Assembly (NCBI RefSeq): GCF_000423045.1
Contig: NZ_AUHF01000001.1
Coordinates: 744,001-808,000 of the forward strand
Source: Christiangramia portivictoriae DSM 23547
GTDB lineage: Bacteria > Bacteroidota > Bacteroidia > Flavobacteriales > Flavobacteriaceae
Direction of reading: 5' to 3'
Length of the DNA: 64,000 bases
This document shows, piece by piece, positions 49,560 through 56,513 of this stretch (the first letter of the stretch is position 1; the number at the start of each line of letters is the position of its first letter). A program made the position numbers and the translations under genes. Below the pieces are notes generated by a model. That model made no database searches and was not told the origin of the DNA. It was given only the letters and a program-made list of their open reading frames with translations.

Positions 49560-49631
49560 TCAATTACTTTTTAAGTTTATAAGAATGGAAAAATTTGACG
49601 TGCGAAGCTAAAAAGGAGTGTAATAACCATT

Positions 49632-49697
49632 CTGCTTTAGCATTTTAAAACATCTGTACGATGTAGAGGGTTGCAATCAGTCAAATCTATCCCTTTC
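49632..49697 (-). ncRNA. Probable SAM-II riboswitch in the metK leader
   Basis: Read leftwards, the leader contains GATTTGACTGATTGCAA flanked by AGGG/CCCT, then TTTTAAAATGCTAAAGCAG. This closely matches the known SAM-II aptamer, where GATTTAACCG-TATTGCA sits in the P1 loop and a later AAATG-GCTAAA segment forms the pseudoknot. CUG in the loop can pair with CAG at the 3' end. A small hairpin (ACATC/GATGT) is inserted before the 3' strand. Next, AGAATGG (49627-49633) can pair with CCATTCT (49582-49588) nearer metK, a possible expression platform. Function is inferred from sequence alone. Confidence 0.68.
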
Positions 49698-49709
49698 AAT
49701 AAGTTGGTA

Positions 49710-49998: not shown

Positions 49999-50030
49999 TT
50001 GGAAATTAAAAAACTGTGTTGTTATATTTG
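49999..50030 (+). promoter_or_regulatory. Promoter of the metY operon
   Basis: TTG (49999-50001), 21 bases, then TATATTTG (50023-50030), a full -7 match. Transcription should start near 50037, twelve bases before the first leader peptide. Confidence 0.72.
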
Positions 50031-50048
50031 TGAACTGTTATTAAGCAA

Positions 50049-50120
50049 ATGACCAGAATTACAAACAATATGATGATGTGTATGATGTGGAGAATTTCCG
50101 CAGCGCATCTTATTGCATAA
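50049..50120 (+). CDS. Leader peptide 1 (Met-rich) of the metY operon
   Basis: A 23-codon open frame beginning at the first ATG of the transcript. Codons 8-13 read ATG ATG ATG TGT ATG ATG, i.e. MMMCMM, followed by Trp. A hairpin-plus-T-tract terminator begins 22 bases after its stop. GCAGCG (50100-50105), just past the Met run, is complementary to CGCTGC (50149-50154) at the top of the terminator's 5' arm. Ribosome stalling on Met codons would leave this free to disturb the terminator. This is the layout of amino-acid attenuation; expression is not proven. Confidence 0.78.
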   Translation: MTRITNNMMMCMMWRISAAHLIA

Positions 50121-50142
50121 TTCTGAAAGAATATAAATTGCA

Positions 50143-50174
50143 AAAAGCCGCTGCCAACCTTAGCGGCTTTTTTT
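50143..50174 (+). terminator. Attenuator terminator 1
   Basis: AAAAGCCGCT, a 9-base loop and AGCGGC followed by seven T's. It lies inside the metY operon leader with no full gene before it, so it acts as a regulated stop. Confidence 0.85.
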
Positions 50175-50213
50175 ATTACCAGATTTAAAAATTAGAACAA
50201 AAAACTCACAGTG

Positions 50214-50309
50214 ATGAAATTACAGGTAACAGCTAAAAATTTGATGAACATGTGCATGATGATGTGCATGTGCAGCATGTATGGCTATTACCTGAACTCG
50301 AGAATATAG
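50214..50309 (+). CDS. Leader peptide 2 (Met/Cys-rich) of the metY operon
   Basis: A 31-codon open frame. Residues 11-22 are MNMCMMMCMCSM: seven Met and three Cys in twelve. GCTATTACC (50284-50292), just after this run, is perfectly complementary over nine bases to GGTAATAGC (50342-50350) in the loop of the terminator that follows. If the ribosome stalls on Met/Cys codons the segment is free to pair; if it reaches the stop at 50307-50309 the segment is covered and the terminator forms. It is the second such unit in series, with no promoter between the two. Confidence 0.85.
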   Translation: MKLQVTAKNLMNMCMMMCMCSMYGYYLNSRI

Positions 50310-50329
50310 ATTTTAAAAGGAATCATTTC

Positions 50330-50369
50330 AAAAGTCCCCCTGGTAATAGCATATCAGGGGGACTTTTTT
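50330..50369 (+). terminator. Attenuator terminator 2
   Basis: AAAAGTCCCCCTG pairs fully with CAGGGGGACTTTT around a 12-base loop, then T's; a very strong terminator 36 bases before metY. Confidence 0.92.
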
Positions 50370-50404
50370 ATTTCAACCATTCATAATTTTTAAAAATTTA
50401 TATC

Positions 50405-51697
50405 ATGAGTACTCAAAAATTTTCAACACAGGCTTTACATTCAGGACACGATACCACTCAAAATGGAGGCACAAGGGCGGTACCAATTTACCAGACCAGT
50501 TCTTATGTTTTCAACGATAGCCAGCATGCCGCAGATCTGTTTTCTCTTGCGAAGCCAGGTTTTATTTACACCCGTTTGAATAATCCCACCAATGATGTGC
50601 TGGAGCAAAGGCTGGCAGCCCTAGAAGGCGGAATTGGAGCGGTGGTGACGGCATCTGGAACCGCGGCGATCAATACTGCGTTACTAACATTACTAAAGGC
50701 TGGCGATCATATTGTTGCCAGCAGCAGTCTGTATGGAGGGACTTTCAACCTCTTACAAAACACACTGCCAAGATTTGGTATTACAACCACCTTTGTAGAT
50801 CCACGTGATCCTGCCAATTTCCAAAAAGCAGCAAAAGAGAACACCCGGGTATTTTTTGTGGAATCCCTGGGGAACCCAAAACTGGATGTTCTGGACCTGG
50901 AAGCAATTTCCAAAGAGGCAAAGGAATTCAATGTACCATTTATCGTGGATAATACCGTAGCCACACCTTACCTGCTGAATCCAATAGAATACGGAGCAGA
51001 TATCGTAATACACTCCTTAACCAAATATATTGGCGGCAATGGTACCAGTCTTGGCGGAGTGATCATAGACGCTGGTAAGTTCGACTGGTCCAGTGGAAAA
51101 TTTCCTGAATTCACCGAGCCATCTCCAGGATATCATGGATTGGTTTATCACGAGGCATTGCAGGAAGCAGCTTTTATAGCTAAAGTCAGAATTGAAGGCC
51201 TTCGTGATCACGGTGCAGCACTTAGTCCGTTTAACGCATTCCAGATCATCCAGGGACTGGAAACACTAAAAGTCAGAATAAACGAGCATAGCAAGAATGC
51301 TTTGGAATTGGCGACCTGGCTGGAAGAGCAGGAGGAAGTAGAATGGGTGAATTATCCAGGACTTAAATCCAGTGAATACTACGATATCGCTCAGCAATAT
51401 TTACCAAAAGGGCAGAGTGGTCTGGTGACTTTCGGGATCAAAGGAGGGTATGAAGTGGCTAAAAATGTAGTGGATGCCTCCAAAGTATTTTCATTGCTAG
51501 CCAATATAGGTGATACCAAATCACTCATTATTCATCCTGCCAGTACCACTCACCAGCAATTAAAAGATAAAGAACAGTTATCTACAGGGGTTACACCAGA
51601 TCTTATAAGACTATCTGTAGGACTGGAAGATGTTGAAGATCTGAAAGCAGATTTAAAGCAGGCGTTCGCCCAGGTAATCCAAAAAACACTTGTTTAA
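50405..51697 (+). CDS. metY: O-acetylhomoserine sulfhydrylase
   Basis: A 430-residue PLP enzyme that makes homocysteine from O-acetylhomoserine and sulfide. TQALHSGHDTTQNGGTRAVP opens the protein, VTASGTAAINTALL binds the cofactor, and the PLP lysine is in HSLTKYIGGNGTSLGGVI; length and the GNGTSLGG loop mark the MetY subgroup, longer than cystathionine synthases. First gene of the metY-metX-hom-metZ operon, directly behind two attenuators. It lets sulfide from the nearby sulfite reductase enter methionine directly. Confidence 0.95.
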   Translation: MSTQKFSTQALHSGHDTTQNGGTRAVPIYQTSSYVFNDSQHAADLFSLAKPGFIYTRLNNPTNDVLEQRLAALEGGIGAVVTASGTAAINTALLTLLKAGDHIVASSSLYGGTFNLLQNTLPRFGITTTFVDPRDPANFQKAAKENTRVFFVESLGNPKLDVLDLEAISKEAKEFNVPFIVDNTVATPYLLNPIEYGADIVIHSLTKYIGGNGTSLGGVIIDAGKFDWSSGKFPEFTEPSPGYHGLVYHEALQEAAFIAKVRIEGLRDHGAALSPFNAFQIIQGLETLKVRINEHSKNALELATWLEEQEEVEWVNYPGLKSSEYYDIAQQYLPKGQSGLVTFGIKGGYEVAKNVVDASKVFSLLANIGDTKSLIIHPASTTHQQLKDKEQLSTGVTPDLIRLSVGLEDVEDLKADLKQAFAQVIQKTLV

Positions 51698-51762: not shown

Positions 51763-52776
51763 ATGTTACAACAAATTAGTATCACAAATTTCAGGAATAG
51801 TGCCGGCAGAGTACAAACTATCGAAGTTTGTTTCCAGCTATTTGGCAGGAAGCTGGGCACGGCCCCGGTTATCCTGGTAAACCATGCGCTTACCGGCAAT
51901 GCCCAGGTTTGCGGTTCAGGAGGCTGGTGGAGTGATATTGTGGGGCCCGGAGCTAGCATAGATACAGAGCAATATGCTATTCTCTGCATTAATGTTCCTG
52001 GGAATGGAATTCTAAAAAATGAAGAAAATAATTTTCATCATTACAAAGAATTTACACTGAATGATATCGCCAGAATCCAGGTTAAAGTTCTGGAACATTT
52101 AAATATTACCGAGCTGTATGCCATCATTGGAGCTTCTATTGGAGGAGCGCTGGCCTGGCAACTGGCCGCCTTAAAACCAGAACTTGCAGCACATGTGATT
52201 CCAATCGCGACAGATCTTAAATCTAACGACTGGCTTCTCGCCAATTGTAAAATTCAGGACAGAATTCTGAATAATAGTGAAAATCCACTGGAAGATGCAC
52301 GTATGCATGCTATGACTTTTTACCGTACACCACAATCACTAAGCTATAAATTCAGAAATGAGAAAGACGAAACTACGAATAGCTTTAAGGTGGAAAACTG
52401 GCTGGAGCATCATGGCAGTAAACTAAGATCGCGATTTAATCTTAGTTCCTATAAATTAATGAACCATTTACTCACTACGATCAATATCTCGAACGAATCC
52501 CGAAGTGCGATTGAGGTGGCTGCGCAAATCAAAGGGCATGTACATTTGATCACGATAGACACCGATCTTTTTTTCCTGGCTGAAGAAAACTGGAATACTT
52601 ACGTGGAGCTGTCTCTGTTTAAAAACAATGTAAGCATTCACGAGATCAAATCCATTCATGGACATGATGCGTTCTTGATCGAAACCGATCAGGTAGCCAG
52701 ATTTTTAGAACCCATATTTCAACAAAAAAACTACACAAATGAAAATAATAAATCTCGCTCTGTTTGGGCCGGGTAA
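51763..52776 (+). CDS. metX: Homoserine O-acetyltransferase-like alpha/beta hydrolase
   Basis: A 337-residue acyltransferase of the MetX family that should activate homoserine. NHALTGNAQVCG gives the oxyanion region, GASIGGALAWQLA the nucleophile Ser, DTDLFF the Asp, and HGHDAFLIE the catalytic His. The nucleophile elbow differs slightly from canonical GGSMGGMQ, and acetyl versus succinyl donor cannot be read by eye; the metY neighbour favours acetyl. It is 66 bases behind metY and overlaps hom by 38 bases, so it is translationally coupled. Confidence 0.87.
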   Translation: MLQQISITNFRNSAGRVQTIEVCFQLFGRKLGTAPVILVNHALTGNAQVCGSGGWWSDIVGPGASIDTEQYAILCINVPGNGILKNEENNFHHYKEFTLNDIARIQVKVLEHLNITELYAIIGASIGGALAWQLAALKPELAAHVIPIATDLKSNDWLLANCKIQDRILNNSENPLEDARMHAMTFYRTPQSLSYKFRNEKDETTNSFKVENWLEHHGSKLRSRFNLSSYKLMNHLLTTINISNESRSAIEVAAQIKGHVHLITIDTDLFFLAEENWNTYVELSLFKNNVSIHEIKSIHGHDAFLIETDQVARFLEPIFQQKNYTNENNKSRSVWAG

Positions 52777-53812
52777 GGTTGGAAGCAAATTAATTCAGCA
52801 GATCATCGCCGAGAAAGATCAACTTTTGAACAATTCAGAACTGGAGATCAGGATTATCCTGATTGCAAATTCCAGTAATTTGATTACAGATCATCTGGGA
52901 TTTGATGAACAATGGAAAGATCGCTTTGATAAGGAGAAACGTTCTTACCATTTCCAAGATATTCTGAGGTATTTCGCAAAGAATGAGTTCAGGAATTTAA
53001 TTTCCATAGATACAACAGCAAGCGAAAGTTTGCCTGAGAATTATATTGATTTGATAGAACATGGAAGTCATATAGTAGCTGCGAACAAGGTAGCAAACAC
53101 GCTAAGTCTGCAATTTTACGAGAACTTAAGAACGGCTTTAAAAAAACACCATAAAATTTTTCAATACGAAACCAATGTGGGAGCTGGATTGCCGGTGGTG
53201 GAAACCATTAAAAGTCTGTATGATTCTGGTGAGCGGGTAACCAGGATCCGTGGAGTTTTCTCCGGTTCCCTCAGCTATATATTTAATACCTATTCCAGGC
53301 AGAATGTTCAATTTTCAGAAGTACTACGGAAGGCCGGAGAATTGGGGTATACCGAGCCAGATGCCAGAGTGGATTTAAGTGGGAAGGATGTAGCCAGAAA
53401 ATTATTAATTCTTGCACGTGAACTTCAGTTAAAGAAAGAGCTGAAAGAAGTAAGTATTCAATCTTTACTTCCTACGTCCCTGAATGGTGGAACCAGTTTA
53501 CAGTATTTTCAGAAGCAGATTTCAATTTTAGACGACATTTTTCAGAAGCATAAAGATGAGAACAAGAGCGGCGAAGTATTGCGTTATGTGGGGGAACTCA
53601 ATGTGGAAAATGGAAGTCTGGAAGCGAGATTGATCTCAGCGAATGCTGCAACTCCGCTGGGCCAGATCGATGGTACCGATAATATTTTTGAGATCTATTC
53701 TGAATCCTATAAGGATTTTCCACTGGTGATCCAGGGAGCGGGAGCAGGAATAGATGTTACCGCGCGAGGTGTTTTTAGTGATATTCTGAAGTTAAACAAA
53801 CAATTAAATTAA
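52739..53812 (+). CDS. hom: Homoserine dehydrogenase
   Basis: A 357-residue enzyme reducing aspartate semialdehyde to homoserine. LALFGPGKVGSKLIQQI binds NAD(P), VAANKVANTL holds the conserved Lys, YETNVGAGLPVVETIKSL the substrate region, and LGYTEPDARVDLSGKDVARK the catalytic Asp/Lys area. It lacks an aspartokinase domain and an ACT domain, so it is the short form, apparently not under threonine feedback through ACT. Placed between metX and metZ, it supplies homoserine for methionine. Confidence 0.93.
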   Translation: MKIINLALFGPGKVGSKLIQQIIAEKDQLLNNSELEIRIILIANSSNLITDHLGFDEQWKDRFDKEKRSYHFQDILRYFAKNEFRNLISIDTTASESLPENYIDLIEHGSHIVAANKVANTLSLQFYENLRTALKKHHKIFQYETNVGAGLPVVETIKSLYDSGERVTRIRGVFSGSLSYIFNTYSRQNVQFSEVLRKAGELGYTEPDARVDLSGKDVARKLLILARELQLKKELKEVSIQSLLPTSLNGGTSLQYFQKQISILDDIFQKHKDENKSGEVLRYVGELNVENGSLEARLISANAATPLGQIDGTDNIFEIYSESYKDFPLVIQGAGAGIDVTARGVFSDILKLNKQLN

Positions 53813-53816
53813 AGGG

Positions 53817-54980
53817 ATGACAAAATTTGAAACCATAGCGGTACGAACGCAATTGGAACGAACATCATTTCAGGAGCACTCCACACCAATGTATCTAACC
53901 TCCAGCTACGTCTTTGAGGATTCAGAAGACATGCGTGCGAGTTTTGCTGAAGAGAAGGAGCGCAATATTTACAGTCGGTATTCAAACCCCAATACTTCAG
54001 AATTTATAGATAAGGTGGTGCAGATGGAAGGAGCTGAAGATGGCTTTGCTTTCGCGACAGGTATGGCAGCCGTGTTTTCGACTTTGGCAGCCCTGCTGGA
54101 TAGCGGCGATCATGTGGTTTCATCCCGTTCGATATTTGGATCAACTCATGGTTTATTTACCAGGTATTTTCCAAAATGGAATATTTCACATGATTATTTT
54201 GATGTGAATGCGCCGGAAGTTATTGAAAGTTTGATCAAACCTAATACTAAAGTCCTGTTTGCAGAATCACCTACCAATCCCGGAGTGGATATTCTGGACC
54301 TGGAGTTGCTTGGGAAAATTGCCAGAAAACATGATCTTATCCTGATCATCGATAACTGCTTTGCCACCCCGTATATACAGAATCCGATTAAATATGGGGC
54401 AGACCTGGTCATACATTCGGCTACAAAATTGATGGACGGGCAGGGCAGGGTTCTAGGTGGAATTACCGTTGGGAATAGAGCATTAATACGTGAGATCTAT
54501 CTGTTTAGCAGGAATACGGGGCCGGCATTATCGCCATTTAATGCCTGGGTCTTATCAAAAAGCCTGGAAACACTGGCTATAAGGTTGGAAAAACATTGTG
54601 AAAATGCGCTGAAAGTTGCAGGGTTTCTAGAGTCTATACCTGCGGTTGAAACCGTAAAATATCCGTTCTTAAAATCTCATCCTCAATATGAAGTGGCAAA
54701 AAAACAAATGAGACTGGGTGGAAATGTAGTGGCATTTCAGATCAAGGGCGGATTGGAAGCAGGCAGAAAATTCATAGATAGCCTGGAACTGTGTTCAAGA
54801 TCTGCAAATCTTGGAGATACAAGAACGATCGTGACTCATCCTGCTTCCACAACGCATAGTAAATTAAACAATGAAGAATTGAAAGCGGTAGGAATTTCAG
54901 AAAGCCTGGTGAGAATTTCGGTGGGTCTGGAACATGTAGAAGATATTATTAATGATCTTAAAAAGGCCTTGCAGGAATAG
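53817..54980 (+). CDS. metZ: O-succinylhomoserine sulfhydrylase-type PLP enzyme
   Basis: A 387-residue trans-sulfuration-family enzyme. NIYSRYSNPNTSEFIDKV, FATGMAAVFSTLAALLDSGD and the PLP lysine in HSATKLMDGQGRVLGG are clear. The DGQGRVLGG loop is that of MetZ (O-succinylhomoserine sulfhydrylase) rather than cystathionine gamma-synthase. It may duplicate or complement MetY, so the operon would have two sulfhydrylases. Cystathionine gamma-synthase activity is an alternative. It starts 4 bases after hom. Confidence 0.86.
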   Translation: MTKFETIAVRTQLERTSFQEHSTPMYLTSSYVFEDSEDMRASFAEEKERNIYSRYSNPNTSEFIDKVVQMEGAEDGFAFATGMAAVFSTLAALLDSGDHVVSSRSIFGSTHGLFTRYFPKWNISHDYFDVNAPEVIESLIKPNTKVLFAESPTNPGVDILDLELLGKIARKHDLILIIDNCFATPYIQNPIKYGADLVIHSATKLMDGQGRVLGGITVGNRALIREIYLFSRNTGPALSPFNAWVLSKSLETLAIRLEKHCENALKVAGFLESIPAVETVKYPFLKSHPQYEVAKKQMRLGGNVVAFQIKGGLEAGRKFIDSLELCSRSANLGDTRTIVTHPASTTHSKLNNEELKAVGISESLVRISVGLEHVEDIINDLKKALQE

Positions 54981-55013: not shown

Positions 55014-55427
55014 ATGCTTTCCAAAAAGACCAAGTATGGTATCAAAGCGCTAACGTATATAGCGCGAAAAGATGAAAAATTACCTGTTCAGGCTTCTGAA
55101 ATTTCAGAAAGTGAGAATATTTCTCAGAAGTTCCTGGAGAGTATTATGCTGGAACTTAGAAAATCTGGTTTTCTAGGATCGAAGAAGGGGAAAGGTGGAG
55201 GTTATTATTTAATAAAAAAGCCTTCAGAAATTAAGATGACCGCAGTGATCAGGGTGCTGGAAGGACCCATAGCCATGGTTCCCTGCGTTAGTCTTAATTA
55301 CTATGAAAAATGCGATGACTGTCCAGATGAAGACGCCTGTTCTGTTCATAAATTGATGATACAGGTGAGGGATGCATCGTTGAATGTACTTGGAGAAAAT
55401 ACCCTTGCAGACATTGCCTTTAGGTAA
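55014..55427 (+). CDS. Rrf2-family regulator with cysteine cluster
   Basis: A 137-residue winged-helix regulator. MLSKKTKYGIKALTYIAR is the Rrf2 opening, followed by ISQKFLESIMLELRKSGFLG with the recognition helix and the wing KGKGGGYYLIK. The C-terminal half has four cysteines spaced C-x8-C-x2-C-x5-C, suited to a metal or Fe-S cluster as in IscR or NsrR, although the spacing differs. CymR, also Rrf2, controls cysteine metabolism in Firmicutes. Its position between the methionine and sulfate-assimilation operons suggests it regulates one or both; that is inference. Confidence 0.9.
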   Translation: MLSKKTKYGIKALTYIARKDEKLPVQASEISESENISQKFLESIMLELRKSGFLGSKKGKGGGYYLIKKPSEIKMTAVIRVLEGPIAMVPCVSLNYYEKCDDCPDEDACSVHKLMIQVRDASLNVLGENTLADIAFR

Positions 55428-55883: not shown

Positions 55884-56513
55884 ATGAAAAAGTATAGCGA
55901 TAAGGAATTAGAAAAGCTTAATAGTCAGTTACGCGGAGTTGCTCCTTCAGAAATTATTCAATGGGTTTTAACCTCTAGTACCAATCCGGTTTTGACTACA
56001 AACTTCAGACCCTATGAGGTAGCTATTTTGCATGCATGTACTCGGGTAAATAATGCGATGAAGATCATCTGGTGTGATACTGGTTATAATACACTGCCTA
56101 CCTATAAACATGCTCAATTTCTTATAGATCATTTAGATCTAAAAGTAGAACTGTATACACCGAGACAAACTGCGGCCTACAGAGATGCCTATTTTGGTGG
56201 TATCCCAGGTATTGATTCACCAGATCATGAGGAATTTAGCAGGCAGGTGAAGCTAGAGCCATTCCAGCGAGCAATGGCAGAACAGAAGCCAGACGTATGG
56301 TTTACGAATCTTAGAAAAGGACAAACAAATTTTAGAGACAGCATCGATATTCTAAGTTATAGTAAAGACGGGCTTCTTAAAGTAAGTCCTTTCTACCACT
56401 GGTCAGACGAAAAATTAGATGAATATTTAAGAGAGCACAAGTTGCCTAATGAATTTAAATATTTCGACCCTACAAAAGTATTAGATAATCGAGAGTGTGG
56501 TTTGCACGCATAA
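55884..56513 (+). CDS. cysH: Phosphoadenylyl-/adenylyl-sulfate reductase
   Basis: A 209-residue enzyme reducing activated sulfate to sulfite. IIWCDTGYNT and YTPRQTAAYRDAYFGG shape the nucleotide site; the C-terminal ECGLHA carries the catalytic cysteine. The two Cys pairs that bind the [4Fe-4S] cluster of APS reductases are absent, which would normally mean a PAPS reductase. Yet no APS kinase (cysC) is present or fused to cysN here. So either cysC is elsewhere or this is a cluster-free enzyme acting on APS. Confidence 0.9.
   Translation: MKKYSDKELEKLNSQLRGVAPSEIIQWVLTSSTNPVLTTNFRPYEVAILHACTRVNNAMKIIWCDTGYNTLPTYKHAQFLIDHLDLKVELYTPRQTAAYRDAYFGGIPGIDSPDHEEFSRQVKLEPFQRAMAEQKPDVWFTNLRKGQTNFRDSIDILSYSKDGLLKVSPFYHWSDEKLDEYLREHKLPNEFKYFDPTKVLDNRECGLHA

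Follow-up and report, generated by a model that had tools for sequence, protein, structure and literature searches.

How is the methionine operon metY-metX-hom controlled in Christiangramia (Gramella), a member of the Flavobacteriaceae? In the 64-kb stretch of DNA analysed here (hereafter, the window), a leader of 0.4 kb separates metK, on the minus strand, from the start of metY at 50405. A first-pass annotation of this DNA had described in the leader one promoter followed by two units in series, each made of a short open reading frame (ORF) rich in Met and Cys codons and of an intrinsic terminator. Every coordinate of this description was confirmed, as were the lengths of the two leader ORFs (23 and 31 codons), and the complementarities between each leader and its terminator (6 and 9 bp) are exact (Table 1). 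Judging from the sequence and its relatives, we consider it highly probable that these units are tandem ribosome-mediated attenuators acting in series, which would control metY-metX-hom according to the charging of tRNA-Met and probably also of tRNA-Cys.

In the mechanism that we propose, the leaders would be translated, and when Met (and Cys) is ample a ribosome would trail the RNA polymerase through each of them. Near the stop codon this ribosome would cover the antiterminator segment, leading to folding of the terminator and to the end of transcription. When charged tRNA is short, the ribosome would stall in the Met/Cys run, mostly at least 12 nt 5' of the segment. The segment, left free, would pair with the loop or 5' arm of the following terminator ahead of synthesis of its 3' arm, trapping the antiterminator kinetically and allowing the polymerase to continue. 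metY would be reached only past both gates, whose effects would multiply, and the first-pass annotation's suggestion that a tandem makes a tighter or graded switch is plausible. In both units, the antiterminator segment is in-frame and inside the ORF, between the codon run and the stop codon, and the terminators are the most stable structures obtained by folding the leader region. The genes located downstream fit the codons of the leaders: metY, the metX-like gene and hom make Met.

Such an arrangement is not expected by chance in this DNA. A scan of the whole window, on both strands, for short ORFs in which 9 codons include 5 or more Met/Cys and which have a terminator at most 140 nt away gave the two metY leaders as the sole matches, and 20 first-order Markov-randomised windows gave none by the same criteria. 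Among same-genus genomes, metY was present in all 24 searched, unit 1 in all 23 with enough upstream flank, and the leader and terminator of unit 2 in 24 of 24 (in L020, a contig end is close by). Gaps within the leaders of the same-genus alignments are mostly in threes and those past the stop codons often measure 1-2 bases. The promoter-like site is also kept in the same-genus alignment. Within 60 nt 5' of unit 1, a TAnnTTTG box was found for 36 of the 40 units examined, 32 of the 40 have a TTG farther up, and no such box was found in any of the 35 stretches between units, indicating that one promoter and one transcript should serve both units. The first-pass annotation had proposed to compare leaders among relatives, and the conservation of frames and Met codons speaks in its favour. 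We also observed that in L014, L019, L024 and L027 the stretch separating terminator 2 from the start of metY contains an inverted repeat of the CCTCACAGGTTTTCAAAACCTGTGAGG type (in the form CCTCCCAGG in L014), and that further repeats occur between the units; these repeats suggest that the units tolerate insertions.

The pairing of each leader with its own terminator was analyzed by a swap test, in which the last 48 nt of a leader were matched to the 5' arm and loop of its own terminator or of those of other genera. For unit 1 (18 genera), the cognate mean was -13.2 kcal/mol compared with -10.4 (sd 0.54) after permutation, and for unit 2 (12 genera, without the degenerate second unit of L085) it was -15.0 compared with -10.7 kcal/mol (sd 0.76); 0 of 20,000 permutations reached the cognate value in either case. 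A second run of the test used named genomes from outside the window's genus; this set overlaps the first in part, and a simple filing rule put several of its unit 2-like leaders under unit 1. The second run gave -12.25 versus -9.68 for 41 distinct units filed under unit 1 and -12.64 versus -11.25 for 34 filed under unit 2, with 0 of 20,000 permutations each time.

Compensatory changes were then counted in two alignments, one of 27 unit 1 sequences and one of 21 unit 2 sequences, both including 10 same-genus genomes. The antiterminator of unit 2 is paired in 97.8% of cells, 6 of its 9 pairs have changed on both sides (14 cells), and all five measures were reached by 0 of 500 shuffles. Because unit 2 sequences took no part in the search that yielded the loci (made with R1, a covariance model of unit 1), this covariation is independent of it. 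The antiterminator of unit 1 is 89% paired, 2 of its 7 pairs have changed on both sides (15 cells), and its covariation score was matched by 0 of 500 shuffles. In terminator 1, pairing reaches 99% and 4 of the 8 pairs have changed on both sides. The unit 1 alignment also contains one position at which all three partners vary, in columns 65 (leader), 124 (5' arm) and 142 (3' arm). A possible inner antiterminator helix of unit 1 has, on inspection of the alignment, a TTACA/TGTAA counterpart in L029 and L030. Thus both antiterminator pairings are conserved and covary, in the swap tests and in the alignments, which was the other comparison that the first-pass annotation had called for. Finally, the distance from the start of the final Met/Cys codon in the run to the end of leader 1 is 36 nt in 12 of 18 genera and 27-42 nt in the others, showing that the spacing is mostly preserved even where the peptide changes.

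To see how a ribosome could act on these RNAs, 24 of the 76 units were folded with an assumed ribosome footprint extending from -18 to +12 nt around the A-site codon. Before the 3' arm is made, the antiterminator of window unit 1 has a modelled probability of 0.02 without ribosome and of 0.96-0.98 with a ribosome at each of the five Met codons. For window unit 2 the corresponding values are 0.02 and 0.69-1.0 at 6 of the 7 Met codons, the probability being 0 at the last one. With a ribosome at the stop codon it falls to 0 in both units. The logic of amino-acid attenuation is therefore supported by conserved frames, covarying pairings and the met genes downstream, and would be consistent with the folding model.

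Several results weigh against this interpretation. Concerning the pairings, shuffled tails of the window's own leaders pair as well in a fraction of 0.27 (unit 1) and 0.095 (unit 2); the pairings of the window alone do not go beyond shuffling, so that their support is comparative. Taken one by one, leader tails beat their shuffles (<=0.05) in only 12 of 18 genera for unit 1 and 7 of 12 for unit 2, and the window's genus is not one of these. The pairing of unit 2 is absent in L284 and L286 (-2.6), and pairings are weak in L301 (-3.9), L260 (-6.5) and L177 (-6.8). For unit 1, the number of pairs changed on both sides was reached by 153 of 500 shuffles, the pair types also fail to exceed the shuffles, only 12 of the 27 sequences form the seventh pair, and shifting the columns by +2 as a control gave 4 pairs changed on both sides, though with only 38.9% of cells paired. 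The compensatory support for unit 1, as counted in the alignment, thus rests mainly on two pairs. Some second units have also degenerated: that of L085 as a whole, and the Met run of unit 2 in L016. The latter (Gramella sp. AN32, the same stretch as L250) retains the frame, the pairing segment and the terminator of unit 2 and has lost most of the Met codons, making it a natural variant informative on the role of these codons.

Concerning the model, the choice of footprint position accounts in part for the result obtained with the stop-codon ribosome, and once the RNA is full-length both window units favour the terminator at equilibrium (0.93-0.96). This requires a kinetic switch, which is also how classical attenuators are considered to work. 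The antiterminator reaches at least 0.5 without ribosome in 13 of the 24 modelled units (5 of 13 units 1 and 8 of 11 units 2), indicating that a protector hairpin, which hides the segment in both window units (0.02), is no general feature; according to these models, species may differ in their default state. Both units of L046 are exceptions in that the stop-codon ribosome blocks the antiterminator poorly (0.66 and 0.37), and the antiterminator of L160 unit 2 forms in no modelled state. A last point is physiological: a shortage of Met should deplete initiator tRNA too, which could halt translation of the leaders and favour termination.

Which amino acids would the leaders sense? Counting one leader per genus, Met and Cys make up 18.8% and 7.2% of the residues of unit 1 leaders, and 20.8% and 12.8% of those of unit 2. 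Provided that the leaders are translated, this composition makes it nearly certain that Met is sensed; sensing of Cys by unit 2 is likely, and a Cys contribution would probably be found above all there. The Met half of the earlier proposal, namely that both charged tRNAs are sensed, is accordingly the firmer one, and its Cys half, a prediction from codon content, is less sure. The competing idea is that only Met counts, the Cys codons being incidental or carried by the RNA sequence (UGU between AUG codons). It can draw on the unit 1 run of L017, where Arg replaces Cys (MMMRMM), on the window's leader, which lacks the Cys found ahead of NMM in most leaders of the genus, and on the excess of Met over Cys in all four grouped means. 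We nevertheless regard it as unlikely, given the strong enrichment of Cys (7% in unit 1 and 13% in unit 2), the use of both TGT and TGC in the window's genus (unit 1: 30 TGT and 13 TGC; unit 2: 52 TGT and 23 TGC), and the Cys-rich leaders present before a cysH-like gene and a solute-binding-protein gene (L234 and L244). These two loci, from other families of the phylum, carry pairs of Cys-rich leaders (each at about 1500-1900), for instance with CCCNCCCLK or ending in MYCCCCC, and could possibly be Cys versions of the same device.

To place the units in the family, we searched 199 Flavobacteriaceae genomes with the R1 model, taking one genome per genus (in this sample and those that follow, genera are not weighted by size). 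Clear matches (E below 1e-6, L040-L053) were obtained in 14 further genera; the loci read were the first 15 outside the window's own genome (L040-L054). Within the window's own genome, R1 matches of ~1e-4 and worse were taken as noise. metY lies within reach at 12 of the 14 loci. L041 is at a contig edge, metY of that genome starting another contig, and in L044 the match precedes a metX-like gene.

A protein search detected metY (E <=1e-190) in 135 of the 199 genomes, and 134 upstream regions were examined, one per genus, the partial gene of G060 being left out. An element resembling the S-box, the SAM-I riboswitch that responds to S-adenosylmethionine (SAM), was recognized in 98 of them; these S-box counts are pattern-based and were checked with Rfam in a sample, SAM (RF00162) being confirmed in 12 of 12 pattern-positive loci. 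Met/Cys leader units were found in 16 regions by a detector with a Met/Cys threshold, from which weak leaders could escape. Leader units and an S-box were never found together upstream of metY, either in the 134 regions or in 80 named loci; in L050, an S-box is located downstream of metY. Among the 20 remaining regions, tblastn with the window's MetK detected a metK frame immediately 5' of metY in 13. No leader was found between the metK frame and metY at these 13 loci (among L111-L193), and metK and metY apparently form an operon there. The others include L128 with a SAM-II riboswitch and G030 with leaders on another contig, and neither S-box pattern nor leader unit was detected upstream of metY in L103, L152, L159, L165 and L171. 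Including G030, 17 genera thus have leaders at metY, with two units in 13 (the second terminator of L160 is weak) and a single unit in four (L047, L050, L051 and L177).

The named metY loci were the best 80 of at least 514, some of them from the same genomes as G-labelled ones (L250 is the stretch of L016, L280 that of G150). The S-box pattern was found in 21 of these and at least one leader unit, by the detector, in 56; L315 has a model match only, and L267 (182 nt upstream) and L312 have neither S-box nor leader. Genera with leaders include Christiangramia, Salegentibacter, Gillisia, Salinimicrobium, Mesonia, Flavobacterium and Lutibacter, and genera with an S-box include Leeuwenhoekiella, Winogradskyella, Aquimarina, Muricauda, Arenibacter and Dokdonia. 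On a quick tree of 99 MetY rows (78 of them named loci, with the window and 20 others), in which many forks are open, the leader and S-box states require 6 changes compared with a mean of 26.6 after shuffling, and 0 of 500 shuffles were as low. Well-supported branches of the tree force at least two leader/S-box changes; for example, the leader-bearing L047 falls in a starred group with two S-box rows, Muricauda and Allomuricauda.

Leaders of this type are not restricted to metY. R3, a cross-genus model of unit 1, matched 22 of 199 genomes in the family, 27 of 246 in the order and 16 of 296 in the phylum (E <=1e-5; the three samples overlap). Of the 27 order-level genomes, 19 belong to the genus coded g128, taken for Flavobacterium. 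The model also matches some unit 2 copies, but only weakly (E about 2.5e-5 to 0.007), a faint similarity that bears on whether the tandem arose by duplication of one attenuator. In addition to metY, R3 leaders precede a metX-like gene (L212), an OsmC-like gene (L218), a cysE-like gene followed by cysK (L332), TonB-dependent receptor genes (L329 and L330), cysH-like genes (L234, in another family, and L248) and a solute-binding protein gene (L244, in another family). The leaders of L218, L225 and L235 contain few Met codons, and that of L235 may be decaying or may sense something else. Six matches (L214, L215, L216, L237, L239 and L240) look false, with no Met/Cys leader before a related gene.

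Two arrangements are worth describing. In L329 (240-5182) and L330 (257-5175), both of g128, the order is unit 1, TonB-receptor gene, unit 2 and metY, the receptor being a protein of 948 aa with the Pfam plug and barrel; with the receptor gene between the units, unit 1 would control the receptor and metY, and unit 2 metY alone. In L044 and in five g128 loci (L235, L236, L245, L246, which is the same place as L333, and L247), an S-box lies between a unit 1-type leader and the metX-like gene. The receptor gene between the units, the leader-S-box series at metX and the at least two leader/S-box replacements at metY suggest that the units could be movable modules. We put forward, tentatively and with rather more doubt than confidence, that the two units, instead of being duplicates that add tightness, form a two-input series gate, unit 1 responding mainly to tRNA-Met and unit 2 to tRNA-Met and tRNA-Cys, both being needed for metY. 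If true, replacement of a leader by an S-box would let one gene switch between the sensing of charged tRNA and that of SAM.

The data were also confronted with explanations in which no ribosome reads the Met codons. A translation-independent RNA switch, riboswitch or protein-binding RNA, with incidental ORFs, would agree with the strong folding and the two mutually exclusive pairings; we judge it very unlikely, however, since the frames are open and contain Met codons in same-genus genomes, leader gaps are mostly in threes, and the leaders of units 1 and 2 are unlike in sequence and alike in Met codons and geometry. No Rfam family reached its gathering score within 49999-50405. A T-box or a SAM riboswitch (S-box, SAM-II) at the metY leader was rejected for lack of a match at gathering score over this interval, and the weak matches to Thr_leader, Phe_leader, FuFi-1, PyrG_leader and RAGATH-25 (minus strand), far under their gathering scores, were taken to reflect a shared attenuator shape or chance.

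Alternatively, the peptides themselves could sense metal or redox state (copper, thiol oxidation) in place of tRNA charging, as short Met- and Cys-rich peptides can bind copper. The genes found downstream (metY, metX-like, hom, cysE-like, cysH-like) are not metal genes, leaving the TonB receptor aside, and the spacing to the pairing segment is maintained although Met and Cys occur in varying order, which suits stalling on codons and makes peptide sensing highly improbable. Plain tandem terminators that insulate metY, or decayed copies without regulation, find some credit in the terminators being the most stable structures and in the decayed Met run of unit 2 in one species (L016). They would leave without explanation the covariation between leader and terminator, the single promoter-like site 5' of both units and the alternation with S-box elements at the same gene, and we can hardly believe in them. 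Tandem attenuation by ribosome stalling thus remains the interpretation that we prefer.

The features of the locus are collected in Table 1. For leader 2, an alternative GTG start one codon upstream is possible. The only Rfam family at gathering score was a SAM-II riboswitch before metK (49627-49700, minus strand), which stands back to back with the metY leader; SAM-II was also found at 11 of the 14 related loci scanned. The window further contains, downstream of the met operon, a gene for an Rrf2-family regulator (55014-55427; best specific match CymR, under cut-off) that precedes a cysH-like gene (55884-56513; best match NF002537, under cut-off). This regulator could possibly provide a second layer of sulfur control.

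Table 1. Features of the metY leader and operon in the window (positions are those of the window).
Feature	Position	Strand	Basis
Bacteroidota-type promoter-like site (-33/-7)	49999..50030	+	TTGG 49999-50002, TATATTTG 50023-50030
Leader ORF 1, 23 codons, MTRITNNMMMCMMWRISAAHLIA	50049..50120	+	sequence, alignment of relatives
Met/Cys codon run of leader 1 (MMMCMM)	50070..50087	+	sequence; frame-keeping 3-nt indel in relatives
Antiterminator segment, unit 1 (GCAGCG)	50100..50105	+	pairs with 50149-50154, 6 bp
Possible inner antiterminator helix, unit 1	50113..50143	+	TTGCA 50113-50117 with TGCAA 50139-50143; alignment
Intrinsic terminator 1	50142..50172, T run to 50174	+	terminator prediction, pairing counts
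Leader ORF 2, 31 codons, MKLQVTAKNLMNMCMMMCMCSMYGYYLNSRI	50214..50309	+	sequence, alignment of relatives
Met/Cys codon run of leader 2 (MNMCMMMCMCSM)	50244..50279	+	sequence, residue counts
Antiterminator segment, unit 2 (GCTATTACC)	50284..50292	+	pairs with 50342-50350, 9 bp
Intrinsic terminator 2	50330..50367, T run to 50369	+	terminator prediction
metY, O-acetylhomoserine sulfhydrylase	50405..51697	+	TIGR01326, 639.6 bits (cut-off 495.1)
metX-like homoserine O-acetyltransferase	51763..52776	+	best NCBIfam match TIGR01392, under curated cut-off
Homoserine dehydrogenase (hom)	52739..53812	+	NCBIfam matches under curated cut-offs
Second Cys/Met-metabolism PLP enzyme, O-succinylhomoserine sulfhydrylase-like	53817..54980	+	NF006003, 505.3 bits (cut-off 522)

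Attenuation by leader peptides is a class of control known for a long time, of which the proposed Met version in a tandem build appears to be a new form; a published Met leader attenuator or a tandem pair of such build was not among the matches listed for open texts without their supplements. As in the trp, his, thr, leu and phe attenuators, a short ORF rich in codons for the amino acid produced is combined here with an antiterminator, an intrinsic terminator and a biosynthetic operon. Unlike in these systems, the amino acid is Met (with Cys), two full units stand in series, the antiterminator segment is inside the ORF between the codon run and the stop codon, and the host belongs to the Bacteroidota. 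The Rfam models Thr_leader and Phe_leader gave 31.2 and 22.6 bits in the leader, compared with gathering scores of 55.

Attenuators in series with two short ORFs in one leader have been described for mgtCBR of Salmonella; in the accessible part of that report, the ORFs sense ATP and proline and the stem-loops are unlike intrinsic terminators (PMC3641672), whereas here the leaders of both units contain Met/Cys codons and each unit has its own intrinsic terminator. The closest parallels for Cys are uORFC-8-2, a Cys-codon upstream ORF ending in a U run before cysS of Rhodobacterales (PMC8632094), and the leaders of actinobacterial cys operons, which contain ORFs with Cys codons (PMC1262725). As far as the available sections of these two reports go, such leaders are Cys-only, belong to other phyla and are not mentioned as tandem units; the second adds that the mycobacterial cys leaders have no conserved terminator hairpins and that the methionine operons of Actinobacteria have no conserved RNA structures upstream. 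Within the same family, clues for leader-peptide attenuation before amino-acid operons have been reported in F. psychrophilum (PMC9723704); the portion of that article at hand names no gene, Met codons or tandem units, and the word methionine is absent from its main text. Exchange of T-boxes or riboswitches for leader peptides has already been described, according to the accessible part of PMC2965389. The S-box acts on the same gene, metY, in most of the Flavobacteriaceae genera examined (98 of 134), and differs from the leaders in that it senses SAM directly; no S-box is present in the window.

Methionine genes are a textbook case of control by SAM riboswitches. As far as comparative sequence evidence goes, a set of Flavobacteriaceae, many Flavobacterium included, appears to sense the supply of Met by ribosome stalling instead, in many cases with an unusual pair of gates. 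Our model predicts two premature transcript ends per leader, and it raises the question of how a Met attenuator works if a shortage of Met also hits translation initiation. The replacement between leader and S-box at metY offers a natural comparison, within one family, of the sensing of charged tRNA and of SAM.

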